Assembly: GCA_002704915.1 (NCBI GenBank)
Contig: PAIP01000059.1
Location: forward strand, 42,435 to 106,434
Source of the DNA: Parvularcula sp.
GTDB lineage: Bacteria; Pseudomonadota; Alphaproteobacteria; Caulobacterales; Parvularculaceae
Reading direction: 5' to 3'
Length of the DNA: 64,000 nucleotides
In this document: piece by piece, positions 16,127 through 33,538 of the stretch
Numbering within the stretch: the stretch's first letter is position 1
How the letters are laid out: each line of letters opens with the position of its first letter
Notes under the pieces: model-generated
What the model was told of the DNA's origin: nothing
The model's input: only the letters and a program-made list of their open reading frames with translations
Databases searched by the model: none
Made by a program: the position numbers and the translations under genes

Positions 16127-18979
16127 ATGAGCCAAATCTCGAAATTCAAATCTATTCTTCTTGCGGGCGCCGCGCTGACAGTTGCAGCCTGTACGCAAGG
16201 CAGCGACATCGAATCGCCGGGCGTCACAAATCCCGGCACGCCCCCGACGGGCGGCGGCGGCGGTGGAGGCGGTGGAACCGTTTCCGGCGACACCTGTCCT
16301 TCCGGCTTCGCCGCCGGCGCGAATGTGGATCGCGCTTCCGGCCCCGATCAGGTTGTCTGCGACATCGCCGGCACCTATCTCGCAAATATTGCGCTTCCCT
16401 ATAAAGACGATGACGGCGACGGCGTGCCGGTTGCGTATCGCATTGCCGGCCGCGTCAATATCGGCGAGGACATCGGCGCAGACGGTTCGGCGGGCAATCC
16501 GGCGGTGCTCACCATTCAGCCGGGCGTCACCCTTTTCGGCGAGTCCGGCAGCGACTTCATGGTCGTCAACCGCGGTTCGCGTATTGAAGCCGACGGCACG
16601 GCAGATGCGCCCATCGTTTTCACCAGCCGCGCTGACCTTGAAGGCACGCAGTCCGATCCGGACAACGCCATCGGCGAGTGGGGCGGTCTTGTGATCCTCG
16701 GCCGCGCGCCGATCAACCGCTGCGAAGGCGGCGGCACGCCGGGCATGGCGGACTGCGAAAACTTCATCGAAGGCGTGACCGCGCCGGAAGCGCAATATGG
16801 CGGCGGCGTCGCAACGGACAATTCGGGCACGCTGCGCTATGTGCGCGTTCAATATGCGGGCTTCCCGCTGTCCTCGGGCAATGAGCTGAACGGCATCTCC
16901 TTCGGCGGCGTCGGCAGCGACACGGTCGTCGACTATGTGCAGGTTCACAACAACTCCGACGACGGCATCGAGATGTTCGGCGGCACGGTGAATCTGAAGC
17001 ACATCGTCCTCACAGGCAATGACGACGACTCCCTCGACACCGACAATGGCTGGAACGGCAAAGTGCAGTTCCTCGTCGTCAGCCAGATCGACGGCCGCGG
17101 CGACAATGGCTTCGAAATGTCATCCGCAGGCACGACCGTGTCGCCGGCGACGAACCCGACAATCGCGAACTTCACCATTGTCGGGTCGACAAAAGCCGCC
17201 GATGCGGGCAACGCCATTCGTCTGAACTCCGGCCATATCGGCCGCTTCCTCAACGGCGTCGTGCAGGATCAGGACGAGTGCTTCCGCTGGCAGGACGCCG
17301 GCAATGACAACGCCACCTATGACGGCATCGGCGTCGATCCGACCTTCAATTCCGTTCTCTTCGATTGCGGAACCGGCGGTCTGACCATCGACGATCCGGA
17401 AACGCCGGCCGCCGTTGCTTCGGTTGCGGCTGACGCCAACAACTCGGAAGACACAAGCTCCATCACCGGGAACTTCCAGGCCGGCGCCAAAGAGCTGCCG
17501 CCCATGGCGACGCCTTTTGCGGTTGAAACGCTCGATCCGTTCTTTGTGGAAGCCGATTATCTCGGCGCCTTCGGTCCGGAAGAAACGGAAACCAACAACT
17601 GGGCGACCGGCTGGACTTTTGGCCTGTTCGCCGATCCGGGCTGCCCGGACGGCACGTCCGATACGGGCAACACCATCAACGGCACGCGCGTTTGTCTCCT
17701 GACCGGCACGCTTGACGGAGATTCGGGCGCCTATACCGAGGTCAGCCTGACTCGCGGCAACTTCTTCGAAATCGACGGCCGCGTTGATGTGGGCGTCGAT
17801 ATCGGCAATGACGGCCTCGAGCCGGATGGCGAGTCGATCGTGCTCAATATCGAGCCGGGTGTTTCGATCTTCGGCAACTCCGGCTCCGACTTCCTGGTCG
17901 TCAATCGCGGTTCGCAGATCTTCGCGAACGGCACGCGTCAGAACCCGGTTGTCTTCACCTCTGAAGCGGACCTTCAGGATGCGGTTGACCCTTCCCTGCG
18001 TCTCGACTCCATTGGTGAGTGGGGTGGTCTTGTGATCCTCGGCCGTGCGCCGATCAATCGCTGCGAAGGCGGCGGCACGCCGGGCGCAGCGGATTGCGAG
18101 AACTTCATCGAAGGCGTGACCGCGCCGGAAGCCCAGTATGGCGGCGGGGTCGCAGGCGATAACTCCGGCATGCTGATGTATACGCTGGTCAAATTCGCCG
18201 GCTTCCCGCTCTCCTCGGGCAACGAGCTGAACGGCATCTCCTTCGGCGGCGTCGGCTCGGGCACCACGGTTGAGTATGTCCAGGTTCACAACAACTCCGA
18301 CGACGGCATCGAGATGTTCGGCGGCACGGTCGATCTGAAACACATCGTTCTGACCGGCAATGACGACGACTCGCTCGACACCGACAATGGCTGGAACGGC
18401 AACGCTCAGTTCGTGATCGTCAAACAGCGCGACGGCCGTGGCGACAACGGTTTCGAGATGTCGTCAGCCGGCACCGCGGTGTCGCCGGCGACCAATCCGA
18501 CGATCGCCAACTTCACGATCTTCGGCACGACCAAAATGACCGATCCGGGCAACGCCATCCGCATCAATAGCGGTCATATCGGACGGTTCATCAACGGCGT
18601 GATCACCGATGAGGATGAGTGCTTCCGCTGGCAGGATGCGGGCGACGGCAACGCCACCTATGACGGCCTCGGCGTCGATCCGACTTTCAACAATTCGCTG
18701 TTCGATTGCGGAACGGGCGGTCTGACCATCGACTCGCCGGAAACGCCGGCGGCGGTCGCCTCCATCGGCGCCGACGCGTCCAATACGACGGCCGTCGACG
18801 TCAACCTGATCGACGACTTCATCAATGATACGGCGGCGGCGGGGCGCACGGCCTTCACCGACCTCCCGACCAATGTCGATCCGTTCTTCGAAGACGTGTC
18901 CTATATCGGCGCCGTCGAAGATCAGAACGACGACTGGTGGGACGAGTGGAGCTGCGGTCTCGCTGCGGACGATTGCTAA
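16127..18979 (+). CDS. Large two-domain beta-helix-like lipoprotein, probable partner of the TonB receptor
   Basis: A 950-residue lipoprotein: signal with lipobox (VAAC, Cys about 21), a Gly-rich linker (TGGGGGGGGG), then two homologous halves of about 447 residues. Each half opens with a Cys-containing segment (CPSGFAAG or CPDGTSDTG). It then runs through the shared strings GSDFMVVNRGS or GSDFLVVNRGS, GEWGGLVILGRAPINRC, SFGGVGS, NNSDDGIEMFGGTV and TGNDDDSLDTDNGWNG. Short strand repeats rich in Gly, Asn and Asp suggest a right-handed beta-helix, with Asp clusters that could bind calcium. No catalytic motif is recognised. It lies just upstream of a TonB receptor and the gsp operon, so secretion to the cell surface by the T2SS and partnership with the receptor are inferred, not shown. 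Confidence 0.85.
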   Translation: MSQISKFKSILLAGAALTVAACTQGSDIESPGVTNPGTPPTGGGGGGGGGTVSGDTCPSGFAAGANVDRASGPDQVVCDIAGTYLANIALPYKDDDGDGVPVAYRIAGRVNIGEDIGADGSAGNPAVLTIQPGVTLFGESGSDFMVVNRGSRIEADGTADAPIVFTSRADLEGTQSDPDNAIGEWGGLVILGRAPINRCEGGGTPGMADCENFIEGVTAPEAQYGGGVATDNSGTLRYVRVQYAGFPLSSGNELNGISFGGVGSDTVVDYVQVHNNSDDGIEMFGGTVNLKHIVLTGNDDDSLDTDNGWNGKVQFLVVSQIDGRGDNGFEMSSAGTTVSPATNPTIANFTIVGSTKAADAGNAIRLNSGHIGRFLNGVVQDQDECFRWQDAGNDNATYDGIGVDPTFNSVLFDCGTGGLTIDDPETPAAVASVAADANNSEDTSSITGNFQAGAKELPPMATPFAVETLDPFFVEADYLGAFGPEETETNNWATGWTFGLFADPGCPDGTSDTGNTINGTRVCLLTGTLDGDSGAYTEVSLTRGNFFEIDGRVDVGVDIGNDGLEPDGESIVLNIEPGVSIFGNSGSDFLVVNRGSQIFANGTRQNPVVFTSEADLQDAVDPSLRLDSIGEWGGLVILGRAPINRCEGGGTPGAADCENFIEGVTAPEAQYGGGVAGDNSGMLMYTLVKFAGFPLSSGNELNGISFGGVGSGTTVEYVQVHNNSDDGIEMFGGTVDLKHIVLTGNDDDSLDTDNGWNGNAQFVIVKQRDGRGDNGFEMSSAGTAVSPATNPTIANFTIFGTTKMTDPGNAIRINSGHIGRFINGVITDEDECFRWQDAGDGNATYDGLGVDPTFNNSLFDCGTGGLTIDSPETPAAVASIGADASNTTAVDVNLIDDFINDTAAAGRTAFTDLPTNVDPFFEDVSYIGAVEDQNDDWWDEWSCGLAADDC
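16290..18976 (+). repeat. Internal tandem duplication within the lipoprotein gene (period 1341 bases)
   Basis: Half one spans roughly 16290-17632 and half two 17633-18976. Matching segments are offset by exactly 1341 bases (447 codons), for example the GAGTGGGGC region at 16676 and 18017. The central 740 bases of each half are nearly identical at DNA level; the outer parts have diverged. This is an in-frame gene duplication and fusion. Confidence 0.85.
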
Positions 18980-19061: not shown

Positions 19062-21719
19062 ATGAAGCCGTATCAAACATTCGGGAGCGCGCTGCTCGCA
19101 TCGACGATGCTCATCGCTCCCTCTGCGTTCGCGCAGGACGCAGGGACGGAAGGGTCGGGAACCGGCAGCAGCCTTTCTTCTTTCCAGCCCACCTATTCCG
19201 ACGAGATCGTGGTCCGCGGCCGCAACATTCCGGAGCCGCAGCGCGCAACCTCTCAAGTCGCAACCTTCTTGAACGCAGACGATTTGCAACGCACAGGCGA
19301 CGACAACGCCGCGCTGGCGCTGACCCGCCTCAGCGGTCTCAGCGTCGTCGGCGGCAAGTTCGCCTATGTCCGCGGTCTCGGCGACCGTTATTCTTCCGCG
19401 CGCCTGAACGGGTCTCCTCTGCCGAGCCCGGAGCCGTTGAAGCGTACCGTGCCGCTGGACCTGTTCCCGTCCAATATTCTTGCAGGCGCTACGGTGCAGA
19501 AAACCTTTTCGCCGAATTATCCGGGCGAATTTGGCGGCGGCATCATCGACCTTCAGACCCTGCGCAAGCCGGACGAGAACTTCCTTAACGTCAAGCTTGG
19601 CATCGGCGCCAATCTCGTCACGACGGCTCGCGAAGGCCTTTACGTCAATGGCGGCGATCTCGACTGGCTTGGCTATGATGACGGCATTCGCAGCATGCCG
19701 GATGAGCTGCAGGCGGTTGTCAATACTGATCAGGAGCTGTCTGACCTGGACCCGGCGGTTCAGGAAGCGGTTGGCGAAAGCCTCGTCAATTCGCCTCTTT
19801 CCGTTATTCAGGAAGGCAGCCTGGGGCCGAATTTCGAAGGCTCTGTCGATGGCGGCAAATATTGGGATATGGATAGCGGAGCGACGTTCTCCATCCTGGG
19901 CGTTGTCGGCTACAAGCAGGACTGGACGACGGAACAAGCCGTGCGCCAGCTCGCCTCTGAAGAGCGGGTCGGAATCAACTCGACCCAAACAGAAACCGCG
20001 CTTGATGTCACTGTTAATGGGCTGCTGACTGCAGCTCTTGAGATGGATCGTCACGCCTTCTCGTTGACCGGTCTTTATATCCATTCGACCCGAAAGGAAG
20101 CGCAGGTACAGCAAGGTTTCAACTTTAACGCTGACGGCGCTGGCGGTTTTGTCACCGAGGCGAACTCCTGGCTCGAGCGCGCCTTGATGATGGGGCAGGC
20201 GGCGGGCGAACACGATCTGAGCGATCAGTTTGCGGTCAACTGGCGTGGCGCATTTGCGCGGTCTACCCGCGATGCGCCTTATGAACGCACCCTCGAAAAC
20301 AGGTCGGCACCCATCGACGAAAACGACAATGTCGTTGGTCCGCCATCGATTGTTTTCAACACGCGTCACAATATCAATTTCTCGGAGCTGACCGACGACA
20401 CCTGGAGTGGCGGCGCTGAACTCCTCTGGTATGTGCCGGTTTCCGGCGCCCGCGAAGCGACGATCTCCGCAGGCTACGAATACAGCGATAATGACCGCGA
20501 GTTCATTTCCGATCCGTTCAACTTCACGTTGAACACGTCGATCCCGATCGATGTGGCTCAAGCCCGCATCGATTTCGCCTATTCGCCGGATAATATCGAT
20601 CCGAACCGGTTCAAGCTGATCGACACCAATACCCAAGGCGTCAACTCCTATAATGGCGAGTTGACGACCCATGCGGGCTACGCCCAGATCGATGCGGAGC
20701 TGATTTCCACGATCCGCACCACGGCGGGCGTTCGCTATGAGACCGCCGATCAGTCCGTGGACGTCTTTGACCGGTTCAACGACTCCAGCGCGTTCGACAC
20801 ATCCTTGTCGAACGATTACTGGCTGCCGTCGGCGATGGTGACCTGGAACTTCACGGATAACATGCAGTTCCGCGTTGGTTACTCTCATACCATCGCGCGC
20901 CCGCAATTCCGCGAGCTTGCCGCCTCGCAGTTCACCGATCCTGAGACGGACCGGATTTATTTCGGCAACTCCAATCTGACGGATAGCAAGTTCAGAAACT
21001 ATGACGCTCGTTATGAATTTTATCTCGGGCGCAACCAGTTCCTGACACTGGCTGGTTTCTATAAGACCATCGACAAGCCGATTGAAGAAATCCAATTCAC
21101 GACGACCGACTTTTCGTTCCAGTCGAGCTTCATCAACTCGCCCAAAGCCGAGCTCCTTGGCGGCGAGTTCGAATATCGCACACGCTTCTTCCTGCCGGGC
21201 GATGGCTGGCTTGCCGATCAGGAATGGTTGTTCTCGGTCAACTACACCTACACGGAATCGGAAATCGTCGTCGGGGCTGGCGACACGATTACCGAACGCG
21301 ACGGCGATATCGTGGCGGCATCGTCCTACGGCCTCGACGGATCTCCGATGGTCGGCACGCCGAAACACATTGTGAACACCCAATTCGGTTGGGAAGGCGA
21401 GAATACGCAGTTCACCATCCTCGGGGGGTGGGTCTCCGAGCGTCTTCTGGCGCGCGGCGAAGCCCTGACAAAGGCGAACCGTCTCCTCGATGTCTATGAA
21501 AAACCGGGTTTCCAGCTTGACGCGGTTTTCCGCCACAGGGTGAACATCCACGGCACGGATTTCACGATCGGGCTGGCTGGGCGCAATCTTCTTGCTACCA
21601 AGCATATCGAGGAGCAACGGGGCGTTGACGACCCGGATCGGGCGCCCGACGGCATCGTCGACTTTAATACCTATGAGCGTGGGCGCAGTCTTTCGGCCAG
21701 CCTCACGGCGCATTTCTAG
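19062..21719 (+). CDS. TonB-dependent outer-membrane receptor
   Basis: An 885-residue receptor with a signal peptide (cut near AFA-QD), a TonB-box-like DEIVVRG near residue 47, a plug domain and a 22-strand barrel ending in an aromatic residue (SLTAHF). The plug has the segments FAYVRGLGDRYSSARLNG and PLDLFPSNILAGATVQKTFS, typical of a TonB-receptor subgroup common in alphaproteobacteria. The substrate is unknown. It would import a ligand across the outer membrane using TonB energy. It follows the beta-helix-like lipoprotein gene with only the palindrome between, and precedes gspC. A clear terminator lies downstream. Confidence 0.95.
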   Translation: MKPYQTFGSALLASTMLIAPSAFAQDAGTEGSGTGSSLSSFQPTYSDEIVVRGRNIPEPQRATSQVATFLNADDLQRTGDDNAALALTRLSGLSVVGGKFAYVRGLGDRYSSARLNGSPLPSPEPLKRTVPLDLFPSNILAGATVQKTFSPNYPGEFGGGIIDLQTLRKPDENFLNVKLGIGANLVTTAREGLYVNGGDLDWLGYDDGIRSMPDELQAVVNTDQELSDLDPAVQEAVGESLVNSPLSVIQEGSLGPNFEGSVDGGKYWDMDSGATFSILGVVGYKQDWTTEQAVRQLASEERVGINSTQTETALDVTVNGLLTAALEMDRHAFSLTGLYIHSTRKEAQVQQGFNFNADGAGGFVTEANSWLERALMMGQAAGEHDLSDQFAVNWRGAFARSTRDAPYERTLENRSAPIDENDNVVGPPSIVFNTRHNINFSELTDDTWSGGAELLWYVPVSGAREATISAGYEYSDNDREFISDPFNFTLNTSIPIDVAQARIDFAYSPDNIDPNRFKLIDTNTQGVNSYNGELTTHAGYAQIDAELISTIRTTAGVRYETADQSVDVFDRFNDSSAFDTSLSNDYWLPSAMVTWNFTDNMQFRVGYSHTIARPQFRELAASQFTDPETDRIYFGNSNLTDSKFRNYDARYEFYLGRNQFLTLAGFYKTIDKPIEEIQFTTTDFSFQSSFINSPKAELLGGEFEYRTRFFLPGDGWLADQEWLFSVNYTYTESEIVVGAGDTITERDGDIVAASSYGLDGSPMVGTPKHIVNTQFGWEGENTQFTILGGWVSERLLARGEALTKANRLLDVYEKPGFQLDAVFRHRVNIHGTDFTIGLAGRNLLATKHIEEQRGVDDPDRAPDGIVDFNTYERGRSLSASLTAHF

Positions 21720-21970: not shown

Positions 21971-22909
21971 TTGCGTTATGAAAAGCAGGTGGGCCGAAAA
22001 GGCGACAGACCGGGTAAGGCGTTAAGCAAGGTGGCGGGTCTTGAACTTCGAAGAGGGTTTGGCGCGCCCGCATTTTTGCGGGGCGAACGGGCCCGCGCGC
22101 TCGGCCCCCGGATCGTCGAATGGGCGCTGATCGCCGTGATCGCCTTTTTGCTGGCCCGCACAGCCATCGCCTTCTTCGCGCCCCTGCCTGTTCCCGCCGG
22201 CGATCAACTTGCAGCTCTGCCCGCGACGAAATCCGGCGGCGCGACGCCTCTTGAGGGACGTAATCCGTTTCCGGCCGCCGTGGTTGATGCGGCGCCCGTC
22301 GAGACCGGCCCCGATCTCGCCGAGACAGCGCTCGATCTGACGCTGACCGGCGTCTGGCCCGGTGATGACAATAGCTCCGCCATCATTCAGCGTCCGGACG
22401 GAAGGCAAAAACGCTTTGCCGTCGGCGATGAAATCGTTTCCGGCGTCCGGCTTGTGGCGGTTTATTCCGATCAGGTCGTAATCGAGCAAAACGGCGTGCG
22501 CGAGTCCCTGCGGTTTGAATCCAAAATCACCGCCCCGCGCGCAATCCAAAATACAAACCGGCCGGCAACTGAAAATGCGCGCGATGCTGCGCCCGAAAAC
22601 AAGATAGAGAATGCGCCGGCAGGGAGCGATCTCAGCGGCGCCTTCCGGCTGGCGCCAGGCGTCGATCCCGCCGGCAAGCCCGCGATCCTTCTTTATGCCG
22701 GTCGAGACCGGGCAACATTCGAAGCGACGGGATTGCGCGACGGCGATGTCTTACGCCTCGTGAACGGCTCGGCGCCGCCGAACGAACCGAACGAACTCGC
22801 TGCGATGATGAGCCAATTCATGAAATCGGGCGCTGCGACCATTGTGATCGAACGCAATGGCGCCATGCAAAAAATCGAGCTGTCGCGAGACGGATCAGGG
22901 GATGAGTAA
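21971..22909 (+). CDS. gspC: Type II secretion protein GspC (inner-membrane link to the secretin)
   Basis: A protein of up to 312 residues. One membrane helix (IVEWALIAVIAFLLARTAIAFF, about residues 48-69) is preceded by a basic cytoplasmic tail. The periplasmic homology-region domain follows (LDLTLTGVWPGDDNSSAIIQ, then RFAVGDEIVSGVRLVAVYSD), and a C-terminal PDZ-like domain (ATFEATGLRDGDVLRLVNG). GspC connects the inner-membrane platform to GspD. The start is uncertain: TTG at 21971 opens the frame, and GTG at 21989 is an alternative that loses six residues. The stop overlaps gspD as TAATG. It is the first gene of the gspCDEFGHIJKLMN operon. Confidence 0.85.
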   Translation: MRYEKQVGRKGDRPGKALSKVAGLELRRGFGAPAFLRGERARALGPRIVEWALIAVIAFLLARTAIAFFAPLPVPAGDQLAALPATKSGGATPLEGRNPFPAAVVDAAPVETGPDLAETALDLTLTGVWPGDDNSSAIIQRPDGRQKRFAVGDEIVSGVRLVAVYSDQVVIEQNGVRESLRFESKITAPRAIQNTNRPATENARDAAPENKIENAPAGSDLSGAFRLAPGVDPAGKPAILLYAGRDRATFEATGLRDGDVLRLVNGSAPPNEPNELAAMMSQFMKSGAATIVIERNGAMQKIELSRDGSGDE

Positions 22910-24924
22910 TGTTGTTGTGTCGTAAAATCCTTGCCGCTTGCAGCGGCGTCGTCTTGTGGGCCGCCGCGCCGCATGCCCTCGCGCAGGAGAATTGCGGCGA
23001 AGCCTTGAATTATGAAGATGCCGACATCCGGGCGGTCATTGACGAAATCGCCATTCGCACCGGCCGCACCTTTCTGCTCGATCCGGCGGTGCAGGGGCGC
23101 GTCACGGTAAAATCGCCGCCCAATGGCGGTCTCTGCGCCGACGAGGCCTGGGAGTTGTTCCAGGCGATGCTGAGGGTCAATGATTTCGTGGCGACCCCGG
23201 TGGGCGATGGAAAATACCGCATCGTTCCCTTACAGGAAGCGGCGCGCACGGCGGGCCCTGTGGGCGAGGGCGTGGGCTCGGACCTCACCACGCAGATTGT
23301 GCGTCTCAACTATGTGGACGCGCGCGAAGCGGCGGCGAACCTGGCGCAGATCATCGGGAATAATGGCGTGGTCAGCCCGGTGCGGTCAGGCAACGCCGTC
23401 ATCATCGTCGACACCGCCGACAATGTGGAGCGCATTCGTCAGGTTCTCAGACAACTCGACCGCGACATGACCGTCTATCGCACCATCGCGTTGGAGCACG
23501 CTTCCGCAACCGAGATTGCGCGGCTTGTGCGCGAACTGGCGCAGGAAATGACCGAAGAGGGCGGCGGTCGCGCCGCCTATAGCGTCGTTGCGGTTGAGGC
23601 CAGCAATTCCCTTTTGATCCGCGCCGAGCCGGCCCTCATGCGCCGTCTTGAACTCGTCATCGGCGAGCTCGACCAATATGGGGAGGCCTCTTCGGAACTC
23701 ACCGTCGTGCATCTGAACCACGCCAACGCCGAAGAGCTTGCGCCCTTGCTTGAGGAAGTCGCAAATAATACCCGTAGCAGTGGCTCCGGCGAAGGAACCG
23801 TCTCCAGTAATCGCGCCACGATTTCCTTCCACAAGGCGACCAACTCCATCATCATCAATGGCGACGCCAATATTCAGCGAACGCTTCAGAATGTGATCGC
23901 CGAGCTCGATGTGCGGCGCCCGCAGGTGCAGGTGGAAGCCATTGTTGTCGAGATTTCGGACACGGCGGCGCGCGAGCTTGGCGTTCAGTATTTTCTGACC
24001 GGCGACAATATTCCGTTCTCGGCGACCAATTATTCCGCTGCGCCGAACATTTTTCCGGCCGCCGGCGCGGCGCTGCTCAACAGCTCTCGTTACAGCGGCA
24101 TTTTCGAAACGCCGACAACCACCGTTGTCGATGACGGCGTTCAGACTCAAAGCGAGACCGAGGGTATTCAGTCGGAGCTCGCCAGACAGGCGCTGCAATC
24201 CTTGCTAGGCGTTCAGGGCCTTGCGCTTGGCGGCGGTTTCGAATTTGGCGATGGAAACATTTTCGGCGGCATTCTGACGGCGCTCAAGAACGACGCGGAT
24301 TCGAATGTCCTTTCGACGCCGTCTGTCGTGACCCTCAACAATGAAACAGCGCGTCTGCAGGTCGGCCAGGAGATCCCGATCACCACAGGTGAAGCGATCG
24401 GAGATGACTTCACCAACGCTTTCCGCACCATATCCCGCGAACAGGTGGGCGTCATTCTGGAAGTGACGCCGCAGATCAATGACGGCGACACGGTGACGAT
24501 GCAGATCGTGCAGGAAATCTCCAGCATCGCCGGGCCCATCAACACCTCCTCCACCGATCTGATCACGAACAAGCGTGAGATTACGACCACGGCGCTGGTT
24601 GATGACGGCGACATCCTCGTCATCGGCGGGCTTATCGACGACACGCGCGAGGAGCGCTCGGAGAAGGTGCCGCTGTTGGGTGATATTCCCGGCGTCGGAA
24701 ACCTGTTCAGATCCTCCGCCAAAGAGCGCCGGCGTCAGAATCTGATGGTCTTCATCCGCCCGACTATCATTCGCGACAAGGAAACGGCGAACGCCGCGAC
24801 AAAACGCAAATTCGATTACATGCGCGCGCGCGAGCTGTTGCGGAACGGCGAGCCTGTTTCCGAAATGGAGCGTCTGATCAACGATGTGACCGGCGTCGCG
24901 CCGCCGGATGCGCAGCCGCAATAG
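22909..24924 (+). CDS. gspD: Type II secretion outer-membrane secretin GspD
   Basis: A 671-residue secretin with a signal peptide (cut near ALA-QE). The N0 domain (LNYEDADIRAVIDEIAIRTG) is followed by N1-N3 repeats (IVRLNYVDAREAAANLAQII, IALEHASATEIARLVREL, VVHLNHANAEELAPLLEEV). The C-terminal secretin domain has the characteristic VPLLGDIPGVGNLFRS and LMVFIRPTII. It forms the multimeric outer-membrane channel through which folded proteins leave the periplasm. It is not a lipoprotein, and a tail of about 45 residues after the secretin domain could be a pilotin-binding S-domain. Confidence 0.97.
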   Translation: MLLCRKILAACSGVVLWAAAPHALAQENCGEALNYEDADIRAVIDEIAIRTGRTFLLDPAVQGRVTVKSPPNGGLCADEAWELFQAMLRVNDFVATPVGDGKYRIVPLQEAARTAGPVGEGVGSDLTTQIVRLNYVDAREAAANLAQIIGNNGVVSPVRSGNAVIIVDTADNVERIRQVLRQLDRDMTVYRTIALEHASATEIARLVRELAQEMTEEGGGRAAYSVVAVEASNSLLIRAEPALMRRLELVIGELDQYGEASSELTVVHLNHANAEELAPLLEEVANNTRSSGSGEGTVSSNRATISFHKATNSIIINGDANIQRTLQNVIAELDVRRPQVQVEAIVVEISDTAARELGVQYFLTGDNIPFSATNYSAAPNIFPAAGAALLNSSRYSGIFETPTTTVVDDGVQTQSETEGIQSELARQALQSLLGVQGLALGGGFEFGDGNIFGGILTALKNDADSNVLSTPSVVTLNNETARLQVGQEIPITTGEAIGDDFTNAFRTISREQVGVILEVTPQINDGDTVTMQIVQEISSIAGPINTSSTDLITNKREITTTALVDDGDILVIGGLIDDTREERSEKVPLLGDIPGVGNLFRSSAKERRRQNLMVFIRPTIIRDKETANAATKRKFDYMRARELLRNGEPVSEMERLINDVTGVAPPDAQPQ

Positions 24925-24938
24925 GCGCGTGAGAGCTT

Positions 24939-26447
24939 ATGAGTGAAACAACCGCAAAAGCGGCGACACGGCTCGCCTATGCTTTCGCCAAGGAACGCGG
25001 CCTCATCGTGCTGGACGCCGCGTCGAGGCCGGTTGTGCTCGGCGCGCGCGGTAAGGCGCCGGACCCTTGGGCGGTCATCGAGGCGCGGCGCGCCATGGGC
25101 GCGCCGGTGGCTGTGGACGTCATGCCGCTCGACGCTTTCGAAAGGCGGCTTTCGGAAATCTATTCGGTCGAGGGGATTTCCACTGACGATCTCGGTCTCG
25201 ACGATGATGACGCGGATCTCGCCTCGCTGGCCGAAGGCCTGCCCAAAACCGCGGACCTCCTCGACAGCGAAAATGATGCGCCGGTGATCCGCTTGATCAA
25301 TGCGCTCATCGCCGAGGCGGTGAAAGTAAAAGCGTCCGACATTCACATCGAACCTTATGAAAAGGCGCTGTCCGTCCGCTTGCGTATAGACGGCGTTTTG
25401 CGCGAAATCCTGTCGCTGCCCTCGCGGATGACGCCGGTGCTGACCTCGCGTGTCAAAGTCATGGCGCGTCTCGACATCGCCGAGCGGCGCGTGCCTCAGG
25501 ACGGACGCATTTCTCTGGCGCTGGGCGGCAAGACGGTCGACGTGCGCGTCTCGACCTTGCCAGCGCGCTTTGGCGAGCGCGTCGTCATGCGTATTCTCGA
25601 CAAGGATGAGGCGCGGCTGGATCTCGACGGGCTCGGCATGCCGAAGGAAATCCTGACGCGCTTCAAACATGCGCTGGCGCGGCCCAACGGCATCATTCTT
25701 GTCACCGGCCCAACAGGCTCCGGCAAGACGACGACGCTTTACGGCGCCCTCACGCTGCTCAATGAACCGAGCCGCAATATTCTCACGGTCGAAGACCCGG
25801 TTGAATACGCCATCGAGGGCGTCGGCCAGACCCAGATCAATCCGAAAGTCGGGATGACCTTTGCGACGGGCCTGCGCGCGATCCTGCGTCAGGACCCGGA
25901 TATCGTCATGGTGGGTGAGATCCGCGATGTGGAAACAGCCGAGATCGCGGTGCAGGCCTCGCTCACCGGGCACCTTGTCCTGTCCACTGTGCATACCAAC
26001 TCCGCCGCCGGCGCCATCACCCGACTGCGCGATATGGGCGTCGAGGCGTTTCTGCTCTCCTCGACCATCGCGGCGGTGATGGCGCAGCGGCTTGTGCGGC
26101 GCCTGTGTCCGTCCTGCAAACAGCCTTACGCGCCGGATGCGGCAACGCGGCGCCTGCTCGGCGTCGGTCCGCGGGAAGAGGTGACGCTCTACCATCCCGG
26201 CGCATGCGGTCGCTGCAACCACACTGGCTATGAAGGGCGCATCGGCGTTTACGAATTGATCGTGGTCGATGAAAAGCTCAAACGCCTCATCCATGACGGC
26301 GCCAATGAACAGGATATTTCCTCCTACGCTTTTGCGCATGGGGACACTTTGCAGCAATCGGGCCTGCGCCATGCGCGCGCCGGCGTCACCTCGCTGGAAG
26401 AGGTCTTGAGGGTCGTGCATCAGGAGGAAGACGATGCCGGCCTTTGA
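24939..26447 (+). CDS. gspE: Type II secretion ATPase GspE
   Basis: A 502-residue cytoplasmic hexameric ATPase that powers pseudopilus assembly. Walker A is GPTGSGKTTT at about residue 256. The Asp and His boxes are seen in SDIHIEPYE, EDPVEYAIEG and STVHTNSAAGA, and Walker B in PDIVMVGEIRD. The zinc-type cysteine pairs (CPSCKQPY and CGRCNHTGYEGRIGVYE) are present. The N-terminal segment that binds GspL is shortened to about 90 residues. The 3' end overlaps gspF by 14 bases. Confidence 0.97.
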   Translation: MSETTAKAATRLAYAFAKERGLIVLDAASRPVVLGARGKAPDPWAVIEARRAMGAPVAVDVMPLDAFERRLSEIYSVEGISTDDLGLDDDDADLASLAEGLPKTADLLDSENDAPVIRLINALIAEAVKVKASDIHIEPYEKALSVRLRIDGVLREILSLPSRMTPVLTSRVKVMARLDIAERRVPQDGRISLALGGKTVDVRVSTLPARFGERVVMRILDKDEARLDLDGLGMPKEILTRFKHALARPNGIILVTGPTGSGKTTTLYGALTLLNEPSRNILTVEDPVEYAIEGVGQTQINPKVGMTFATGLRAILRQDPDIVMVGEIRDVETAEIAVQASLTGHLVLSTVHTNSAAGAITRLRDMGVEAFLLSSTIAAVMAQRLVRRLCPSCKQPYAPDAATRRLLGVGPREEVTLYHPGACGRCNHTGYEGRIGVYELIVVDEKLKRLIHDGANEQDISSYAFAHGDTLQQSGLRHARAGVTSLEEVLRVVHQEEDDAGL

Positions 26448-27648
26448 ATATGAAGCCGTCGATTTTGGCGGGCGGACAAAAAAAGGCGTTCTTTCCGCCG
26501 ACAGCCCGCGCCAGGCGCGACAGGAATTAAGACGCATGAAGCTGACGCCGTTGCGCCTTTCCGCGCCGCGGTCGGAACGTAAAGCGGGCGCTTTCGGCTC
26601 GGACAAGCCGCGCGTCAAACCCGCGCAACTGGTGATGATGACGCGGCAATTATCGGCGTTGATCGGCGCGGGCACGCCCTTGGAAGAAGCCCTCAACGCC
26701 GTGGCGGTGCAATCGGAATCCGGGCCGGCGCGCACGCGTCTTCTTTCGGTGCGCGAGCGGGTAATGGAGGGCTGGCGGTTCGCCGATGCGCTGGCCGAAG
26801 ATGAAAAGTCCTTCCCGCCGCTCTATCGCGCCGTCATCGCTGCGGGCGAGACCTCCGGCGATCTCGGCGGTGTGCTCGACCGCCTCGCCTCCATGCTGGA
26901 GAAAAACCGGGCCATCAAGAACAAGGCGGTTGCCTCGCTCATCTATCCGGCGGCGCTGATGATGATCGCCGGCGGCGTCGTCACTGCGCTGATGGTGTTC
27001 GTCGTTCCAAAGATCATCGACCAGTTCAACAGCTTCAACGCCGAGTTGCCTTTTCTCACGAAGGTCGTTGTCGGGCTTTCCAACTGGACTGTGAGCTATG
27101 GGCTGTTTGCGCTTCTTTTTATTGTTATTTTGGGCGTCGCCTTCTGGCGCGCCATGAAGGAGCCGCGCTTCAAGCTCGCCGTGGACCGCTTCATGCTGCG
27201 CGTTCCGGTGCTGGGCCGGCTTTCCCGGGGCGTTGATGGGGCCCGTTTCGCCCGCACGCTGGCGACCCTTTTTTCCGGCGGCGCGCCCTTGCTGGACAGT
27301 CTTGTGGGGGCGCAAAAGACGGTTTCAAACAGCTATATCCGCTCGCGGCTTGACCGGACGGTGACGATGGTGGGAGAGGGAGCCTCGCTCGCCGCCGCCA
27401 TCAAGCGGGCGGATGTTTTGCCGCCCATGCTCACCCATATGATTGCGGCGGGCGAACGGGCGGGCGCCCTGTCGGAGCTGCTCGACAAGGCGGCGCTGCA
27501 GCTCGAAGAAGAATTCGATACGGCGTCGACGGTGGCCCTGAGGCTTTTGGAGCCGGCCATCATCGTCGCCATGGGCGGCGCGGTGCTCGTCATCGTGCTG
27601 TCAATTTTGCTGCCGATCCTGCGCATCAACACGCTGGCTGTCGGCTAA
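26434..27648 (+). CDS. gspF: Type II secretion inner-membrane platform protein GspF
   Basis: A 404-residue platform protein with the usual N-terminal opening (MPAFEYEAVDFGGRTKKG), two repeated GspF cytoplasmic domains (first LVMMTRQLSALIGAGTPLEEAL, second FARTLATLFSGGAPLLDSL) and three membrane helices (IYPAALMMIAGGVVTALMVF, VSYGLFALLFIVILGVAF and IIVAMGGAVLVIVLSILLPIL). It couples the GspE motor to the pseudopilus. The start lies inside the end of gspE. Confidence 0.96.
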   Translation: MPAFEYEAVDFGGRTKKGVLSADSPRQARQELRRMKLTPLRLSAPRSERKAGAFGSDKPRVKPAQLVMMTRQLSALIGAGTPLEEALNAVAVQSESGPARTRLLSVRERVMEGWRFADALAEDEKSFPPLYRAVIAAGETSGDLGGVLDRLASMLEKNRAIKNKAVASLIYPAALMMIAGGVVTALMVFVVPKIIDQFNSFNAELPFLTKVVVGLSNWTVSYGLFALLFIVILGVAFWRAMKEPRFKLAVDRFMLRVPVLGRLSRGVDGARFARTLATLFSGGAPLLDSLVGAQKTVSNSYIRSRLDRTVTMVGEGASLAAAIKRADVLPPMLTHMIAAGERAGALSELLDKAALQLEEEFDTASTVALRLLEPAIIVAMGGAVLVIVLSILLPILRINTLAVG

Positions 27649-27662
27649 ACGGGAGACGCTAA

Positions 27663-28118
27663 ATGAAGAAGACCATGAAACGCCGTCAAAGAGGCTTTTC
27701 GCTTGTTGAATTGCTCGTAGCGCTCGCCATTCTCGCGCTAATTTCTGCGATTGTCGTGATCAATGTGCTGCCGGCGCGCGACAAAGCGGCGGTCGATACG
27801 GCGAAGATCGATATCGGCGTTATCGAAAGCGCGCTCGATCAATACCGTCTCGACATGATGAACTATCCGAATTCGCAGCAGGGCTTGCGGGCGCTGATCA
27901 CTGTTCCCGCCGATGCGCGCAACGCGTCGAACTACCGCCCAGGCGGTTATCTGCGCGGCGAAGTCCCGACCGATCCCTGGGGCAATCCTTATCAGTATCG
28001 TTTTCCGGGCGAGCGCGGCGGCGCCTATGATCTCTATTCCCTTGGCGCCGATGGCGAGCCCGGCGGCGAGGGGCTGAACGCCGATATCGGCAACTGGTCG
28101 GATGACGAGCGGCTGTAA
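27663..28118 (+). CDS. gspG: Type II secretion major pseudopilin GspG
   Basis: A 151-residue pseudopilin. The prepilin cleavage site is RQRG-FSLVELLVALAILAL with Glu at +5, so the prepilin peptidase would cut after Gly. The C-terminal half holds the GspG signature PTDPWGNPYQYRFPG and the calcium loop GADGEPGGEG ending in ADIGNW. It builds the periplasmic pseudopilus that pushes cargo through GspD. The 3' end overlaps gspH by 17 bases. Confidence 0.97.
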   Translation: MKKTMKRRQRGFSLVELLVALAILALISAIVVINVLPARDKAAVDTAKIDIGVIESALDQYRLDMMNYPNSQQGLRALITVPADARNASNYRPGGYLRGEVPTDPWGNPYQYRFPGERGGAYDLYSLGADGEPGGEGLNADIGNWSDDERL

Positions 28119-28650
28119 GCATAAGTCACGCCGGATCTCGCGGCGACAGGCGCAGCGCGGTCTCTCGCTTGTGGAACTGCTTGTGGTCATGGCGCTCGCC
28201 GCCATGGTCGCCGGCGTCGTCGTCATCAATGCGCCCCCGGGCCGAACGGATGCGCGCCGGGCCGCCGAAGCTCTTGCCGCGCGGCTCGATTTTGCGGCGC
28301 AGGATGCGGTCACGCGCGGCGCCGTTCTTGGCATGCGCCTCGATGACGAAGGGTATGCTTTCTTTCGTTATCAGCGCGGCGAGTGGAAGCCGGAAACAAC
28401 GGCGCAGATGAAAGCGGATAGTTTTCCGCCGGAATTTTCCGTCGATGTTTCGCGCGAGGCGCCGGCGAAAAGAAATGAGCCGGAGGAAAAACGCCGGGAG
28501 ACAGAAACTGTCATCCGGCCGGATCTGCGGTTCATGCCGACGGGCGAAACAACGCCGGTGACGGTGATGTTGCAGGATCGGCGCGAGATTTGGCGCGTGA
28601 CGCTGGACGGCGCGGGCCATGTGGAAGTGAGCAATGTCGATGGCGCGTAA
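28102..28650 (+). CDS. gspH: Type II secretion minor pseudopilin GspH
   Basis: A 182-residue minor pseudopilin with a long basic leader, the cleavage site AQRG-LSLVELLVVMALAAM and a GspH-type segment RRAAEALAARLDFAAQDAVTRG. The rest forms the variable globular head; a Lys/Glu-rich loop (APAKRNEPEEKRRETE) is unusual but plausible. It starts inside gspG and its end overlaps gspI by 17 bases. Confidence 0.88.
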   Translation: MTSGCKHKSRRISRRQAQRGLSLVELLVVMALAAMVAGVVVINAPPGRTDARRAAEALAARLDFAAQDAVTRGAVLGMRLDDEGYAFFRYQRGEWKPETTAQMKADSFPPEFSVDVSREAPAKRNEPEEKRRETETVIRPDLRFMPTGETTPVTVMLQDRREIWRVTLDGAGHVEVSNVDGA

Positions 28651-29008
28651 CAACCAGAAGGGCGTGACCCTTGTCGAGACACTGGTGGCGCTCGCCGTTA
28701 TGGGCCTCGTTATCGGCGCGCTCCTGGTGCTGATGGGCCAGAATTCGCGTTTCGCCGCCTCCATGCGCGAGCGCACGCTCGCCGCCATCGCAGCAGACAA
28801 TCTCATGGTCGAGGCGATGGTGCTGCGCGAGGCGACGGAAATCGGCGAAACCGAAGGCGAGGTGACGGTGGGCGGCGCTGCGCTTCGTTATCGTCGCACG
28901 ATTGTCGAAACCGGCGTCGACAACATTGTGCGTATCGAGATCGATGTTCTGTCGCCGGGTGGGGAGCAGCGCCTTGCGCATGCCGTCTCCATGCGGAGGC
29001 CGTCATGA
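28634..29008 (+). CDS. gspI: Type II secretion minor pseudopilin GspI
   Basis: A 124-residue minor pseudopilin of normal length with cleavage site NQKG-VTLVETLVALAVMGL and the family segment RTLAAIAADNLMVEAMV. GspI nucleates the pseudopilus tip with GspJ and GspK. The ATG at 28634 has a GGAAG site in the end of gspH; its stop overlaps gspJ as ATGA. Confidence 0.92.
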   Translation: MSMARNNQKGVTLVETLVALAVMGLVIGALLVLMGQNSRFAASMRERTLAAIAADNLMVEAMVLREATEIGETEGEVTVGGAALRYRRTIVETGVDNIVRIEIDVLSPGGEQRLAHAVSMRRPS

Positions 29009-29658
29009 ACGCCCACGCACAAAAAGGCCTGACCCTGCCGGAGGTGCTGATCGCGCTGCTCGTGTTTTCAGCGATCGCCGCGACCGCTGTTTACGCCCTG
29101 CGGCTTGGCGTTGACAGCCGCGACCAGCTTGCGGTTGTCGATGACGATCTGAAATCCTTCCAGATTGCGCGCACGCTCATCAAGGAAGATCTGGCGCAGA
29201 TAACTTCGCGCACCGTGCGCGATGAGTTCGGCGACGGCCGGCCTGCGGCCTTTATGGGCAATCTTCAGAATTTCGCGTCGCGCCGTGAGGAGGACGAGCG
29301 CGTGCTCGCCTCTTTCGTGCGGGCGGGCTGGATCAATCCGGGGGCGGAGGAACCGCGCAGCGCCCTTCAATATGTGGAATATGTGTTTCGCGACGGGGTG
29401 CTCCTGCGCCGCAGCCGCGCCTATCTCGACGAGGCCTCCGGCGCAGATGCTGACGAGCGCGTCTTGTTCGCCAACCTTGTGGATGCGCAGGCCGCTTTTT
29501 TGATCGGCGAGCAGCGCGGCGAGCTGGAATGGTCGGATATCTGGCCGGTGTCGGGCAGGGGCTCGGCGCCGCAGGCCCTATCCATTACCCTTGACCGCGA
29601 AGGCCGAGAGCCGGTGGAGCAGCTTTTCTGGATCGCCCCCGTGGAGGCGCAGTCATGA
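29005..29658 (+). CDS. gspJ: Type II secretion minor pseudopilin GspJ
   Basis: A 217-residue minor pseudopilin with cleavage site AQKG-LTLPEVLIALLVFSA, Glu at +5. The family segments FQIARTLIKEDLAQITSR and YVEYVFRDGVLLRRSR are present. It forms part of the pseudopilus tip. ATGA overlaps occur at both its start and its end. Confidence 0.94.
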   Translation: MNAHAQKGLTLPEVLIALLVFSAIAATAVYALRLGVDSRDQLAVVDDDLKSFQIARTLIKEDLAQITSRTVRDEFGDGRPAAFMGNLQNFASRREEDERVLASFVRAGWINPGAEEPRSALQYVEYVFRDGVLLRRSRAYLDEASGADADERVLFANLVDAQAAFLIGEQRGELEWSDIWPVSGRGSAPQALSITLDREGREPVEQLFWIAPVEAQS

Positions 29659-30623
29659 CCCGGGGGGAGGACCAGAAAGGCGCCGCCCTGCTGATCGTGC
29701 TTCTTCTGGCGGCGACGCTGTCTTTCGTGGCGTTGTCCGCCATGGAGCTGACCACGCGCGCTGCGGCGCGGACCGTTAATGTCAATGCGCGCGGCGAAGC
29801 CTTGTGGCGCGCCTTCGCCGTTGAAACGCTGACGCTCGCCGCTGTGGAAGAGATCGCGTCGGCCGATAGCGGAATCATGTCGCTTGACGATCCATGGGCG
29901 AGCGAGCCTGTGGAATTGCCTTTCGAGGAAGGCGGCGCGCGCGTTCTTCTCGGGGACGGAACCGCCTGTTTCAACGTCAACGCCTTGAACACGACCTATG
30001 GCGAAGGCGCCGGCGATCAGACTGTCGCTGAATTTATCCGCCTCGCCGGTCATCTCGGCGTCAGTGAATTCGACGCGGCCGCGCTGGCGCAGGCGATTGG
30101 CGACTGGGTCGATGAAGATACGAGCCGGCGCCCGCAAGGCGGCGAGGATGAGCATTATACGGTCTTGCCGTCGCCCTATCGCACCGGCAATCAGGCGATG
30201 GCTTCCGTTTCCGAATTGCGTGCGGTCAAAGGCGTGACGCGAGAGCTTTACGGCGCGCTGAAGCCGCATCTTTGTGCGCGCGAAGGCGGGGCGCCGTCAG
30301 TGATCAATGTAAACATGCTTTCAGAGCGCCATGCGCCCGTGCTCGCGGCCGCTCTCGGGCCGGCGGTGACCCCGCAAATGGCGGCGGACGTGATTTCCGC
30401 CCGCCCGCCGGGCGGCTGGACCAGTGTGGATGCGTTTCTCGCGACCCCGCCGATCAGCGATCTGGAACTTGAAAACGGGAGCCGGTTCGCCGTGTCGTCC
30501 CGCTTCCTGATCGCCCGTGCAGAGATTGTTTATGATACTGCCTTACTGGAGATGACGTCGGTTATTGACGCAAATGAAGGGGCTGCGCGCGTGATATCGC
30601 GCCGGCTCGGAGCGGAAGAGTGA
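29655..30623 (+). CDS. gspK: Type II secretion minor pseudopilin GspK (tip protein)
   Basis: A 322-residue minor pseudopilin. The cleavage site DQKG-AALLIVLLLAATLS lacks Glu at +5, as is usual for GspK. The large inserted domain has LGDGTACFNVNALNTTYG and AIGDWVDEDTSRRPQGGEDEHYT, the GspK calcium and alpha-domain segments, and INVNMLSERHAPVLAAAL. It caps the pseudopilus and may contact cargo. It overlaps gspL as GTGA. Confidence 0.95.
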   Translation: MTRGEDQKGAALLIVLLLAATLSFVALSAMELTTRAAARTVNVNARGEALWRAFAVETLTLAAVEEIASADSGIMSLDDPWASEPVELPFEEGGARVLLGDGTACFNVNALNTTYGEGAGDQTVAEFIRLAGHLGVSEFDAAALAQAIGDWVDEDTSRRPQGGEDEHYTVLPSPYRTGNQAMASVSELRAVKGVTRELYGALKPHLCAREGGAPSVINVNMLSERHAPVLAAALGPAVTPQMAADVISARPPGGWTSVDAFLATPPISDLELENGSRFAVSSRFLIARAEIVYDTALLEMTSVIDANEGAARVISRRLGAEE

Positions 30624-31816
30624 ACGAAACCTTAATTCTTCTTGCAGGCTCGACGCCGGAGGCCCCCGTGCAATGGGCCTTTGTCGGCGAGTCAGGCATC
30701 ATCGAGGCCGATACGGCTGACAGCGTCGCCGACCTTGCCGCCATCACCGACCGCGCCGCGGAGGCGCGTTCCATTGCGTTGATCTTGCACGGCGAGTGCG
30801 CCACCATGCGCGCGTTGCCCGTTCCGCCGAAGTCCACGGCCCAGTTCCGCGCGGCCGCGAGCATGCTGCTTGAAGACGAACTCGCGGAAAGTCTGGAAAA
30901 TGTCCATGTCGTTACAACGCGACATGAGAGCGGCGCCGGGATATCGCTGGCGATCAAGAAATCGGAAATGGACGCGTGGCTTACGGCGCTGGCGCAGTCC
31001 GGATTGTCGCCAGACATCCTCACCGTGGACTATGCCGTAACGCCTATGGCGCCGGGCCGCGCGGTCGTCATCGAAACCTCGGACCGGATGATGGGCGTTG
31101 TGGGTTTGAAAGGCTTCGCCCTCGAGAAGACGCTCGCGGGCGAACTCTTATCATCGCTGCTCCATGACGAGGAACTGAGGAAGATCGTCGCCTGTACTGC
31201 GCAGAGGATCACGGCGGACGAGCGCGAAACGCTGGAGATCGATCAGCGCGAGCCCATGAACGGCGAAGCGCTTCTCGGGTTTTTCGCCGAAGGTCTCGCC
31301 AAGGCGCCGAATTTTCTGCAGGGCGCCTATCGCAAGCGGCGCGACTGGCGTGCGACCGCCGGTCCGTGGCGCCGGGCGGGACTTCTCGCGGCGGCGTCGG
31401 TTGCGGCGCTGTTGCTGGTCAATATTGCGGAACTTATACGCGATCTGCGTACGGCGGATCGCCTTGAAGAAGACACGCTCGCCCTTCATCAAACCGTGTT
31501 TCCGGATGCGGCCGGCGTCGATCCAAGAACGCATGCGCGGCAGGTCCTGGGCGCCGGCGCCGGCGGCCGATCGTTTCTGACAATTTCCAATGCGCTTGCC
31601 GACAGCCTTGAGGGATCGAGCGGCATTCAGATCGACCGCATCCGCTATAATGGCGCGCGCGACGAATATGCCGTGAATTTGCGCTTCGGCGACATCAGCC
31701 AGATCGAAACACTGAAGCGCATGCTGGAGGCGCGCGGCCTGACTGCGGCGGAGGCTGGCGGCGTTCGGCGCACTGGCAACGCCTATCTCGGCGAATTGAG
31801 GGTGAGCGCGTCATGA
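30620..31816 (+). CDS. gspL: Type II secretion assembly protein GspL
   Basis: A 398-residue bitopic protein: a cytoplasmic actin-like domain that recruits GspE (residues about 1-245, with AQFRAAASMLLEDELAE and DILTVDYAVTP), one membrane helix (AGLLAAASVAALLLVNIAEL, about residue 255) and a periplasmic ferredoxin-like domain. GTG at 30620 is used because it overlaps the gspK stop (GTGA) in line with the rest of the operon. Confidence 0.92.
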   Translation: MNETLILLAGSTPEAPVQWAFVGESGIIEADTADSVADLAAITDRAAEARSIALILHGECATMRALPVPPKSTAQFRAAASMLLEDELAESLENVHVVTTRHESGAGISLAIKKSEMDAWLTALAQSGLSPDILTVDYAVTPMAPGRAVVIETSDRMMGVVGLKGFALEKTLAGELLSSLLHDEELRKIVACTAQRITADERETLEIDQREPMNGEALLGFFAEGLAKAPNFLQGAYRKRRDWRATAGPWRRAGLLAAASVAALLLVNIAELIRDLRTADRLEEDTLALHQTVFPDAAGVDPRTHARQVLGAGAGGRSFLTISNALADSLEGSSGIQIDRIRYNGARDEYAVNLRFGDISQIETLKRMLEARGLTAAEAGGVRRTGNAYLGELRVSAS

Positions 31817-32271
31817 CCTGGTGGACTGATCTTTCGCAGCGCGAGCGCCTGATGATCCTCATCGCCGGCGCGCTTGCGGCTGTGCTTTTCGTTTCGCTTG
31901 CCATTGTGCGGCCCTTCGCGGATTTGCGCTCAGACGCCGCCCGCAAGGCGGCCGCAGCCCGAGACGGCTATGAACTGACCGCTGCTGCGGCGGCTGTCGC
32001 CGGCGTCTCGGATACGACAGCCCCGCAGGACGGCGCGCCATTGCGGCAGGCGGTGCTTCAGTCTGCGCGAGCCGCGGGCATTGAAGTCGTGCGCATCGGC
32101 GCGGAAAGCGACGGCCAGCTAGAAATTCAGGCCGCGCCTGTCAATGGCGACGTGTTTTTTGAATGGCTGGCGCAGGTGCAAGGAAATTACGGCGCACGGG
32201 TCGCCTTTGCGGATATCGCCCGCGGCGAGGACGGCATGGTGACGCCGCAAGTTCTGGTGTTGGAGCGGTAA
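31813..32271 (+). CDS. gspM: Type II secretion protein GspM
   Basis: A 152-residue inner-membrane protein with a short cytoplasmic tail (MTWWTDLSQRERLMI), one helix (IAGALAAVLFVSLAIVRPF), a coiled stretch and a small periplasmic ferredoxin-like domain (GQLEIQAAPVNGDVFFEWLAQVQ). GspM binds GspL and steers pseudopilin assembly. It is joined to gspL by ATGA and to gspN by TAATG. Confidence 0.93.
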   Translation: MTWWTDLSQRERLMILIAGALAAVLFVSLAIVRPFADLRSDAARKAAAARDGYELTAAAAAVAGVSDTTAPQDGAPLRQAVLQSARAAGIEVVRIGAESDGQLEIQAAPVNGDVFFEWLAQVQGNYGARVAFADIARGEDGMVTPQVLVLER

Positions 32272-33047
32272 TGACGAAAGGCGCTGTGCAATCGAAAAAG
32301 CTGCTCGCGCCAATTCTCGTTGGCGGCTTTATCTTTCTTGCAACGCTGATCGCCTCGATCCCGGCCAGCGCTGTGTCTCTGCTCGCAAACAACAGCGGCG
32401 GCGCGATCTCTTATGCGGATGCGCGCGGGACAATCTGGAATGGCGAACTCGGGTCCGCTTCGGCGGGGGGCGTGGCCCTCGGCGACGTTCGGTTCCATCT
32501 GTCGCCCTGGTCGTTGCTGACGTTCTCGCCAAAAGTGACACTCTCCGCGAACGGCGCTGTACGGGGAACGGGCGCCGTCGCTTTCGGTCCGGGCGCCAAG
32601 CTTTCATTGAAGAATGTGAAAGCGGATATCGATCTTGCCGCGGCCGCGCCGCGCGGCCTTCTGGGCGAACCGGCGCGCGGTGAAGCGAGACTGAACATAA
32701 AGCGGCTCGACTTCAGCCGCAAAAACGGTTGCCTGAACGCCGCCGGGGATTTGTGGACCAATGCGCTCGATGCGCCGGCGAAGCGTTATGATCTGCCCGC
32801 CCTGCCCATGAGCGGCGGCGTGGCCTGCGAAGACGGCAAGCTGGTGATTGCGATGACCGGCGAAAACGCCCGCACGGCGGCCCGTATCCGACTTTTGCTC
32901 GACCGGTCGCTCGCTTATGAAGTGACAGCGACAGCGCAGCCTTCGGAAGAAAATGTCGCCTCCGCCTTGCGCTATTTCGGGTTCGAAGACGACAATGGCG
33001 AAATGACCTATGGCACAGTGGGCGTGCTGACTGGAGCAGGATCATGA
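32271..33047 (+). CDS. gspN: Type II secretion protein GspN
   Basis: A 258-residue protein with an N-terminal signal anchor (LLAPILVGGFIFLATLIASIP) and the family opening ARGTIWNGELGSASAGGVALG, a repeat-strand segment also seen in AsmA-like proteins. GspN is present in only some T2SS and its role is unclear. The ATG at 32271 overlaps the gspM stop; the ORF track starts 36 codons earlier inside gspM and is not credible there. Confidence 0.9.
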   Translation: MTKGAVQSKKLLAPILVGGFIFLATLIASIPASAVSLLANNSGGAISYADARGTIWNGELGSASAGGVALGDVRFHLSPWSLLTFSPKVTLSANGAVRGTGAVAFGPGAKLSLKNVKADIDLAAAAPRGLLGEPARGEARLNIKRLDFSRKNGCLNAAGDLWTNALDAPAKRYDLPALPMSGGVACEDGKLVIAMTGENARTAARIRLLLDRSLAYEVTATAQPSEENVASALRYFGFEDDNGEMTYGTVGVLTGAGS

Positions 33048-33538
33048 ACAAGTCCATTCTCGCCATATGTTCTTTCGCGGCGCTCGCCGGTGCCTGCGTA
33101 ACAGACGGGATGTCCTCGCCGCGTCAGGCCGAAGCCGGCAGAATTGATCTGGCGAGCGATGCTGCGGGGGCGCAAGGCTTGCGTCCTTTGGGCGATGCGG
33201 CGCTTCCGGACAAATCCTGCGGCATGATTTTGTGGACGCTCGAGGGCGTGCGTCCTGCGGCGGTATTCAGGTTCGTTTCTGGCAAAGAGGCCGAGATCAA
33301 TATCGCCGGTCAGCCGGTAATGCTAACCCGCACTGCGCAGGACGGCGCGGCGGGCTTTGGCGTTTTCGAACGTCAGGTCTTTGAAAGTGAAGACGGGGTG
33401 ACTGTTGAAGTGTCCGCCCGTTTTGGGCTCGGTTTTGACGGCGGCGCCTATCTTGAAAAAGGATTGATCAAGGTTCGGGATGATCAAGGCTGGAGCATGG
33501 TCGCGCCAACGGCCGGCATCGCCGGATGCAAAAATTAA
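33044..33538 (+). CDS. Uncharacterised lipoprotein closing the gsp operon
   Basis: A 164-residue protein with lipobox (ALAGAC, Cys about 18). The mature part is a small domain with two further cysteines (DKSCGMILW and IAGCKN), which could form a disulphide linking its first strand to its end. A central region (PVMLTRTAQDGAAGFGVFERQVFE) is predicted mostly strand. I recognise no family. It overlaps gspN by ATGA and is the last gene of the T2SS operon, so a role as pilotin for GspD or another T2SS accessory is a reasonable guess. Its stop interlocks with that of the ZIP gene (TTAA). Confidence 0.8.
   Translation: MNKSILAICSFAALAGACVTDGMSSPRQAEAGRIDLASDAAGAQGLRPLGDAALPDKSCGMILWTLEGVRPAAVFRFVSGKEAEINIAGQPVMLTRTAQDGAAGFGVFERQVFESEDGVTVEVSARFGLGFDGGAYLEKGLIKVRDDQGWSMVAPTAGIAGCKN

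Follow-up and report, generated by a model that had tools for sequence, protein, structure and literature searches.

The closest described counterparts of the protein analysed here are the pilotins PulS/OutS (PF09691) and AspS/GspS-beta (PF16549) and the T2SS accessory proteins GspB/OutB (T2SSB, PF16537) and GspN (PF01203). The folds of pilotins are not conserved (PMC10499894), secretins that depend on a pilotin have been proposed to be marked by an Ala-Phe motif in alpha-12, and pilotin-independent secretins such as ExeD exist (PMC6532946). GspB binds the N-domains of the secretin GspD and aids secretin assembly (PMC10128026, PMC9239104). In A. baumannii, lipoprotein substrates of the T2SS carry a motif rich in Gly/Ser or in Asn/Asp behind the lipid Cys, and T2SS surface lipoproteins need GspN, for which a hand-off partner has been postulated (PMC12802150). 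The gsp cluster of Caulobacter crescentus encodes a working T2SS and ends with gspN followed by an opposite gspO; the cluster also has a TonB-dependent receptor, cc0171 (PMC2996285). The route by which alphaproteobacterial T2SS secretins reach the outer membrane, and their seat in it, have been little studied.

The window, which is the whole stretch of 64,000 nucleotides analysed from Parvularcula sp. contig PAIP01000059.1, carries a standard gspC-gspN operon followed by one further ORF, for which we use the provisional name gspX. Genes C, D, J, K, L, M and N were assigned by Pfam/NCBIfam, and those of relatives by family HMMs. The nearest named relatives place the genome close to Marinicaulis (Parvularculaceae). 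The features, all on the forward strand, are listed by position.

21971..22909, +, gspC, start of the gsp operon (PF11356, E 2.1e-19)
22909..24924, +, gspD, secretin and putative partner of GspX (TIGR02517, E 1.8e-153; top co-divergence pair with gspX)
24757..24921, +, C-terminal S-domain tail of GspD (from RPTIIRD), with a conserved alpha-11 part and without the Ala-Phe motif
24939..32271, +, gspE to gspM (J, K, L and M by Pfam; E to I by position, translation and use as queries in relatives)
32268..33047, +, gspN (PF01203, E 5.5e-30), probable start at 32268, where it overlaps the stop of gspM
33044..33047, +, ATGA in the sequence, overlap of the gspN stop and the gspX start
33044..33538, +, gspX, ORF with translation, 164-aa predicted exported lipoprotein closing the gsp operon
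33044..33094, +, signal peptide of GspX with lipobox, MNKSILAICSFAALAGA followed by CVTDG, cleavage predicted before Cys18 (codon 33095-33097)
33098..33181, +, variable linker of GspX, probably disordered (pLDDT <50 for residues 1-46; unconserved in the alignment)
33182..33535, +, conserved core of GspX, residues 47-164, nine predicted strands (AlphaFold2), with C59, W64, P155 and C162 invariant

Translational coupling of gspX to gspN, which the initial annotation had noted, is borne out by the ATGA overlap, and the same 4-bp overlap is found in 27 of the 32 relatives having gspN upstream. With its sequence conserved in five families and also beyond the order, gspX cannot be a chance ORF. A lipoprotein gene merely adjoining the operon was also considered and rejected. 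RNA fold prediction at the operon end gave no unusual structure. Directly upstream of gspC lies a TonB-dependent receptor gene (19062-21719, +), a neighbourhood common to the window, the Caulobacter gsp cluster and the Indioceanicola plasmid described below. A 967-aa ORF upstream of the receptor (16076-18979, +) has no Pfam match at E 1e-5 and could encode an exported substrate.

GspX homologues were found in 39 of 60 relatives and in 164 of 298 well-assembled genomes of the order. T2SS-type GspD, scored by TIGR02517 at E <1e-80, is present in 162 of these 164 genomes (Fisher p 4e-25), and the other two carry gsp fragments at contig edges, E-M-X on one and N-X on the other. Among the 298 genomes, 69 have GspD without GspX and 65 have neither. 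Across 387 genomes sampled from the class, genuine GspX outside the order occurs in one genus only (G187, G396), where it is last after gspN; the most distant class match (G362) was discarded as a Pal-like lipoprotein matching only in its signal peptide. GspX was found only with and inside T2SS loci, and its linkage to the T2SS is well supported. The T2SSs of Caulobacter- and Brevundimonas-like genomes are without GspX, and a search of GspX-less operons with a broader HMM found no divergent GspX after gspN. Because some T2SSs of the clade are without it, GspX is optional for T2SS function across the clade and not a core part.

Conservation of the gene at the end of gsp operons had been proposed as a check, and GspX is the last gene in every inspected locus. 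At least ten operons (L063-L065, L085, L089-L091, L184, L185, L188) have no gspN and keep GspX after gspM, and GspX is thus independent of GspN. Four genomes of family f5 (G055, G059, G503, G628) have split clusters, with gspC-D-N-X together and gspK on a different contig. Such a split T2SS is a natural separation of the outer and inner modules. At the loci concerned (L106, L108, L186 and L187 in G055, G059, G628 and G503, respectively), gspK and presumably the rest of E-M lie away from gspC-D-N-X. A 454-kb plasmid of Indioceanicola profundi (Rhodospirillales; Azospirillaceae) carries a complete gspC-gspN operon and then gspX, annotated as "hypothetical protein" (L159; NZ_CP030128.1, 349908-378228). 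Since this plasmid-borne operon with gspX stands in another order, the gene travels with the operon, and horizontal transfer of the whole T2SS is probable. The plasmid locus has a TonB-dependent receptor upstream and transposases nearby, and its gspL is annotated as two ORFs. At another locus (L195, in G581) gspH precedes gspG and gspE appears as two matches; GspX is present in that genome, outside this locus.

The lipobox that had been seen in the window protein, MNKSILAICSFAALAGA before the Cys, is present, and most of about 80 homologues have one. In E. coli the +2 residue after the lipid Cys governs outer-membrane sorting of lipoproteins, and the rules differ among species. The family mostly reads CA[ST], with Ala at +2 in 29 of 52 members and Asp in none, which suggests, by the E. 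coli rule, sorting to the outer membrane. Five members instead have a plain signal peptide in which the lipid Cys is lost, namely L199 (f1, the family of the window itself), L101 and L153 (f3), L152 (f4) and L105 (f5); L151 and L154 could be read either way. As these five span f1, f3, f4 and f5, at least four families have members that, judged from predicted signal peptides, lost the lipid anchor but kept the core and the operon place.

An alignment of 37 GspX sequences has just four invariant residues, C59, W64, P155 and C162, and its conserved residues include no catalytic-looking motif. Searches with GspX against Pfam, NCBIfam and PHROGs gave chance-level matches and no family, and those with 37 family members against Pfam and NCBIfam likewise stayed at chance level; a profile search of the PDB returned only chance GTPase and complement matches and no solved pilotin. 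Modelled with AlphaFold2, both the full protein and the core alone have nine strands, no core helix and a core pLDDT of about 80; the models are of moderate confidence, the input being five sequences after the contig scan feeding the prediction had found four close relatives. In the model, C59 belongs to the first strand and C162 to the last, and a C59-C162 disulfide therefore probably closes an all-beta, barrel-like domain. The two Cys earlier suggested to bridge are both invariant, and the bond itself is probable. The best fold matches are the avidin/calycin-type barrels zebavidin (4BJ8) and agroavidin (8ASR), with probability 0.97-1.0, E 0.013, TM <=0.50 and about 10% identity for models of moderate confidence, which suggests a barrel-type resemblance and not kinship.

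The likely partner of GspX was sought by co-divergence, comparing pairwise protein distances among loci and controlling for the mean of the remaining Gsp proteins; this test is not tree-aware, and shared inheritance can inflate distance-matrix correlations. GspX-GspD gave the top residual correlation, 0.51 (66 pairs, 29 loci) and 0.54 (55 pairs, 34 loci), with a permutation p of 2e-4. The method is supported by the high ranks of the expected T2SS neighbours F-L, E-L, E-F, L-M and J-K. The partial r was 0.20 for GspX-GspN and 0.02 for GspX-GspE, and GspC was covered in 16 loci only. GspX-GspD kept rank 1 with any one family left out, except for rank 3 without f2. GspX thus appears to co-evolve preferentially with one machine subunit, but not within f5, the best-sampled family, alone, where the signal is gone (0.19, rank 25 of 55). 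Within GspD, the signal comes from columns 0-450, which hold the N-domains and the early secretin domain; the C-terminal tail gave -0.02, a value that is suggestive and not decisive for this short and very variable segment. Since GspX-GspD is the strongest residual co-divergence of the 55-66 pairs, GspD as the likeliest partner of GspX is moderately supported. GspN as sole partner was considered and rejected.

On these grounds we give about even chances to the reading that GspX serves the alphaproteobacterial (Caulobacterales-type) T2SS as a clade-specific accessory subunit working at the secretin end. Most likely it is a new family that is usually anchored in the outer membrane and, facing the periplasm, acts on the secretin. 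The small all-beta, barrel-like domain, its ends probably joined by the C59-C162 disulfide, would bind the periplasmic N-domains or the lower secretin domain of GspD in a putative contact, and would help the secretin to assemble, to be held or to be gated at the outer membrane. What we infer are the outer-membrane location, the disulfide, physical binding to GspD, and the role in assembly or stabilisation. A more specific form, in which GspX is a lipidation-optional, disulfide-closed beta-barrel secretin cofactor on the GspD N-domains and not on the S-domain, possibly as an acyl-chain-binding acceptor through which the T2SS hands lipoproteins to the secretin, is doubtful at present. If true, it would make GspX the founder of a new class of secretin cofactor.

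The initial annotation had proposed GspX as a candidate pilotin. The part of this proposal that stands is a conserved operon-closing T2SS lipoprotein with GspD as its best partner by co-divergence; there is no such support for a classical pilotin that acts on the S-domain of GspD, the partial r for the tail being about zero. GspX is a lipoprotein of about the right size inside the gsp operon, and the tail of GspD, which had been thought a possible S-domain, does have a genuine S-domain start, aligned to solved GspDs, and then a short amphipathic segment. Genomes of the clade conserve a short amphipathic motif ([LIMV][DE]x[hydrophobic]2) close to the C-terminus of GspD, whether or not they carry GspX. 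It is also true that no recognised pilotin is otherwise present: the ORF has no Pfam/NCBIfam match, and a search of 100 genomes of the order for PulS/OutS and AspS, the two pilotin families described from gammaproteobacterial T2SSs, found none with a positive E. coli control, so no described pilotin fills the role. Neither GspX nor 36 homologues belong to these two families by Pfam and NCBIfam, and with pilotin folds not conserved a pilotin may be all-beta.

Against a classical pilotin, lipoprotein status holds for the window protein and most homologues but not for the five plain-signal members, including one of the window's own family. The GspD tail does not co-diverge with GspX, and the same tail is kept where GspX is absent: a simple tail motif matched in 17 of 19 GspD tails without GspX in the locus and in 25 of 28 with it, and f5 sister genomes have a near-identical tail with GspX (L143) and without it (L130-L133). 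The Ala-Phe alpha-12 motif occurs in none of 47 GspD tails, and the functional C. crescentus cluster does without GspX. Because of the shared tails, the absence of Ala-Phe, the existence of pilotin-independent secretins and the GspX-less T2SS of C. crescentus, we have lowered the classical pilotin to an unlikely reading, and GspX may yet have a role in secretin assembly.

It is likewise unlikely that GspX instead serves GspN as an outer-membrane acceptor, a lipocalin- or LolB-like beta domain that would receive surface-lipoprotein acyl chains from the groove of GspN and pass them to the secretin. The gspN-gspX overlap in most relatives, the adjacency of the two genes even in split C-D-N-X clusters, the hand-off partner postulated for A. 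baumannii and the ligand-binding avidin-type barrels as best fold matches all speak for such an acceptor. However, the operons without gspN keep GspX, many genomes have gspN without gspX, the co-divergence of GspX with GspN is weak, and the fold matches are not significant.

Very unlikely is a T2SS substrate or surface lipoprotein standing in the operon by chance. GspX is exported, probably disulfide-bonded, and lipidated or soluble, as T2SS substrates are, but it is strictly the last gene, a place kept in five families and through a plasmid transfer, and it has no conserved catalytic-looking residues. A sorting motif rich in Gly or in Asn/Asp behind the lipid Cys is also absent, the window protein reading CVTDGMSS, although the motif was defined in A. 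baumannii and its transfer is uncertain. A periplasmic inhibitor or immunity-type barrel restraining T2SS-exported enzymes before export is most unlikely: small disulfide-closed beta barrels, such as AprI-type proteins, can inhibit, but none of 37 members matched AprI/Inh or any other Pfam family, and GspX is linked to the machine and not to a substrate gene, and co-diverges with GspD.

The preferred reading of GspX as an accessory subunit at the secretin end describes a widespread T2SS-linked family that is nameless in Pfam and NCBIfam, and it can be set beside the known systems. ElpS of C. crescentus is, like GspX, a lipoprotein whose gene adjoins a Caulobacterales gsp cluster, but the gene of this phosphate-starvation protein lies upstream, and the product, of about 50 kDa, is released in a manner that depends on the T2SS (PMC2996285), whereas GspX has 164 aa and closes the operon. 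GspN is likewise a T2SS accessory component, and its gene is adjacent to and usually overlaps gspX; it is, however, an inner-membrane beta-taco protein (PMC12802150), and each of the two is found without the other. PulS/OutS and AspS/GspS-beta resemble GspX as small outer-membrane-type T2SS lipoproteins with GspD as likely partner. GspX differs from them in having no sequence match to them, a predicted all-beta fold, optional lipidation and no link to the S-domain tail of GspD, and its GspD is without Ala-Phe. GspX has no PF16537 (GspB) match in Pfam, and a PF16537 search of 40 relatives was silent, as was its control. GspB is an inner-membrane protein, whereas GspX is Sec-exported or lipidated and has a different predicted fold. 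In function, GspB comes close to the role proposed here, as an accessory factor which acts on GspD N-domains and aids secretin assembly, and GspX points to these same domains as the place to look.
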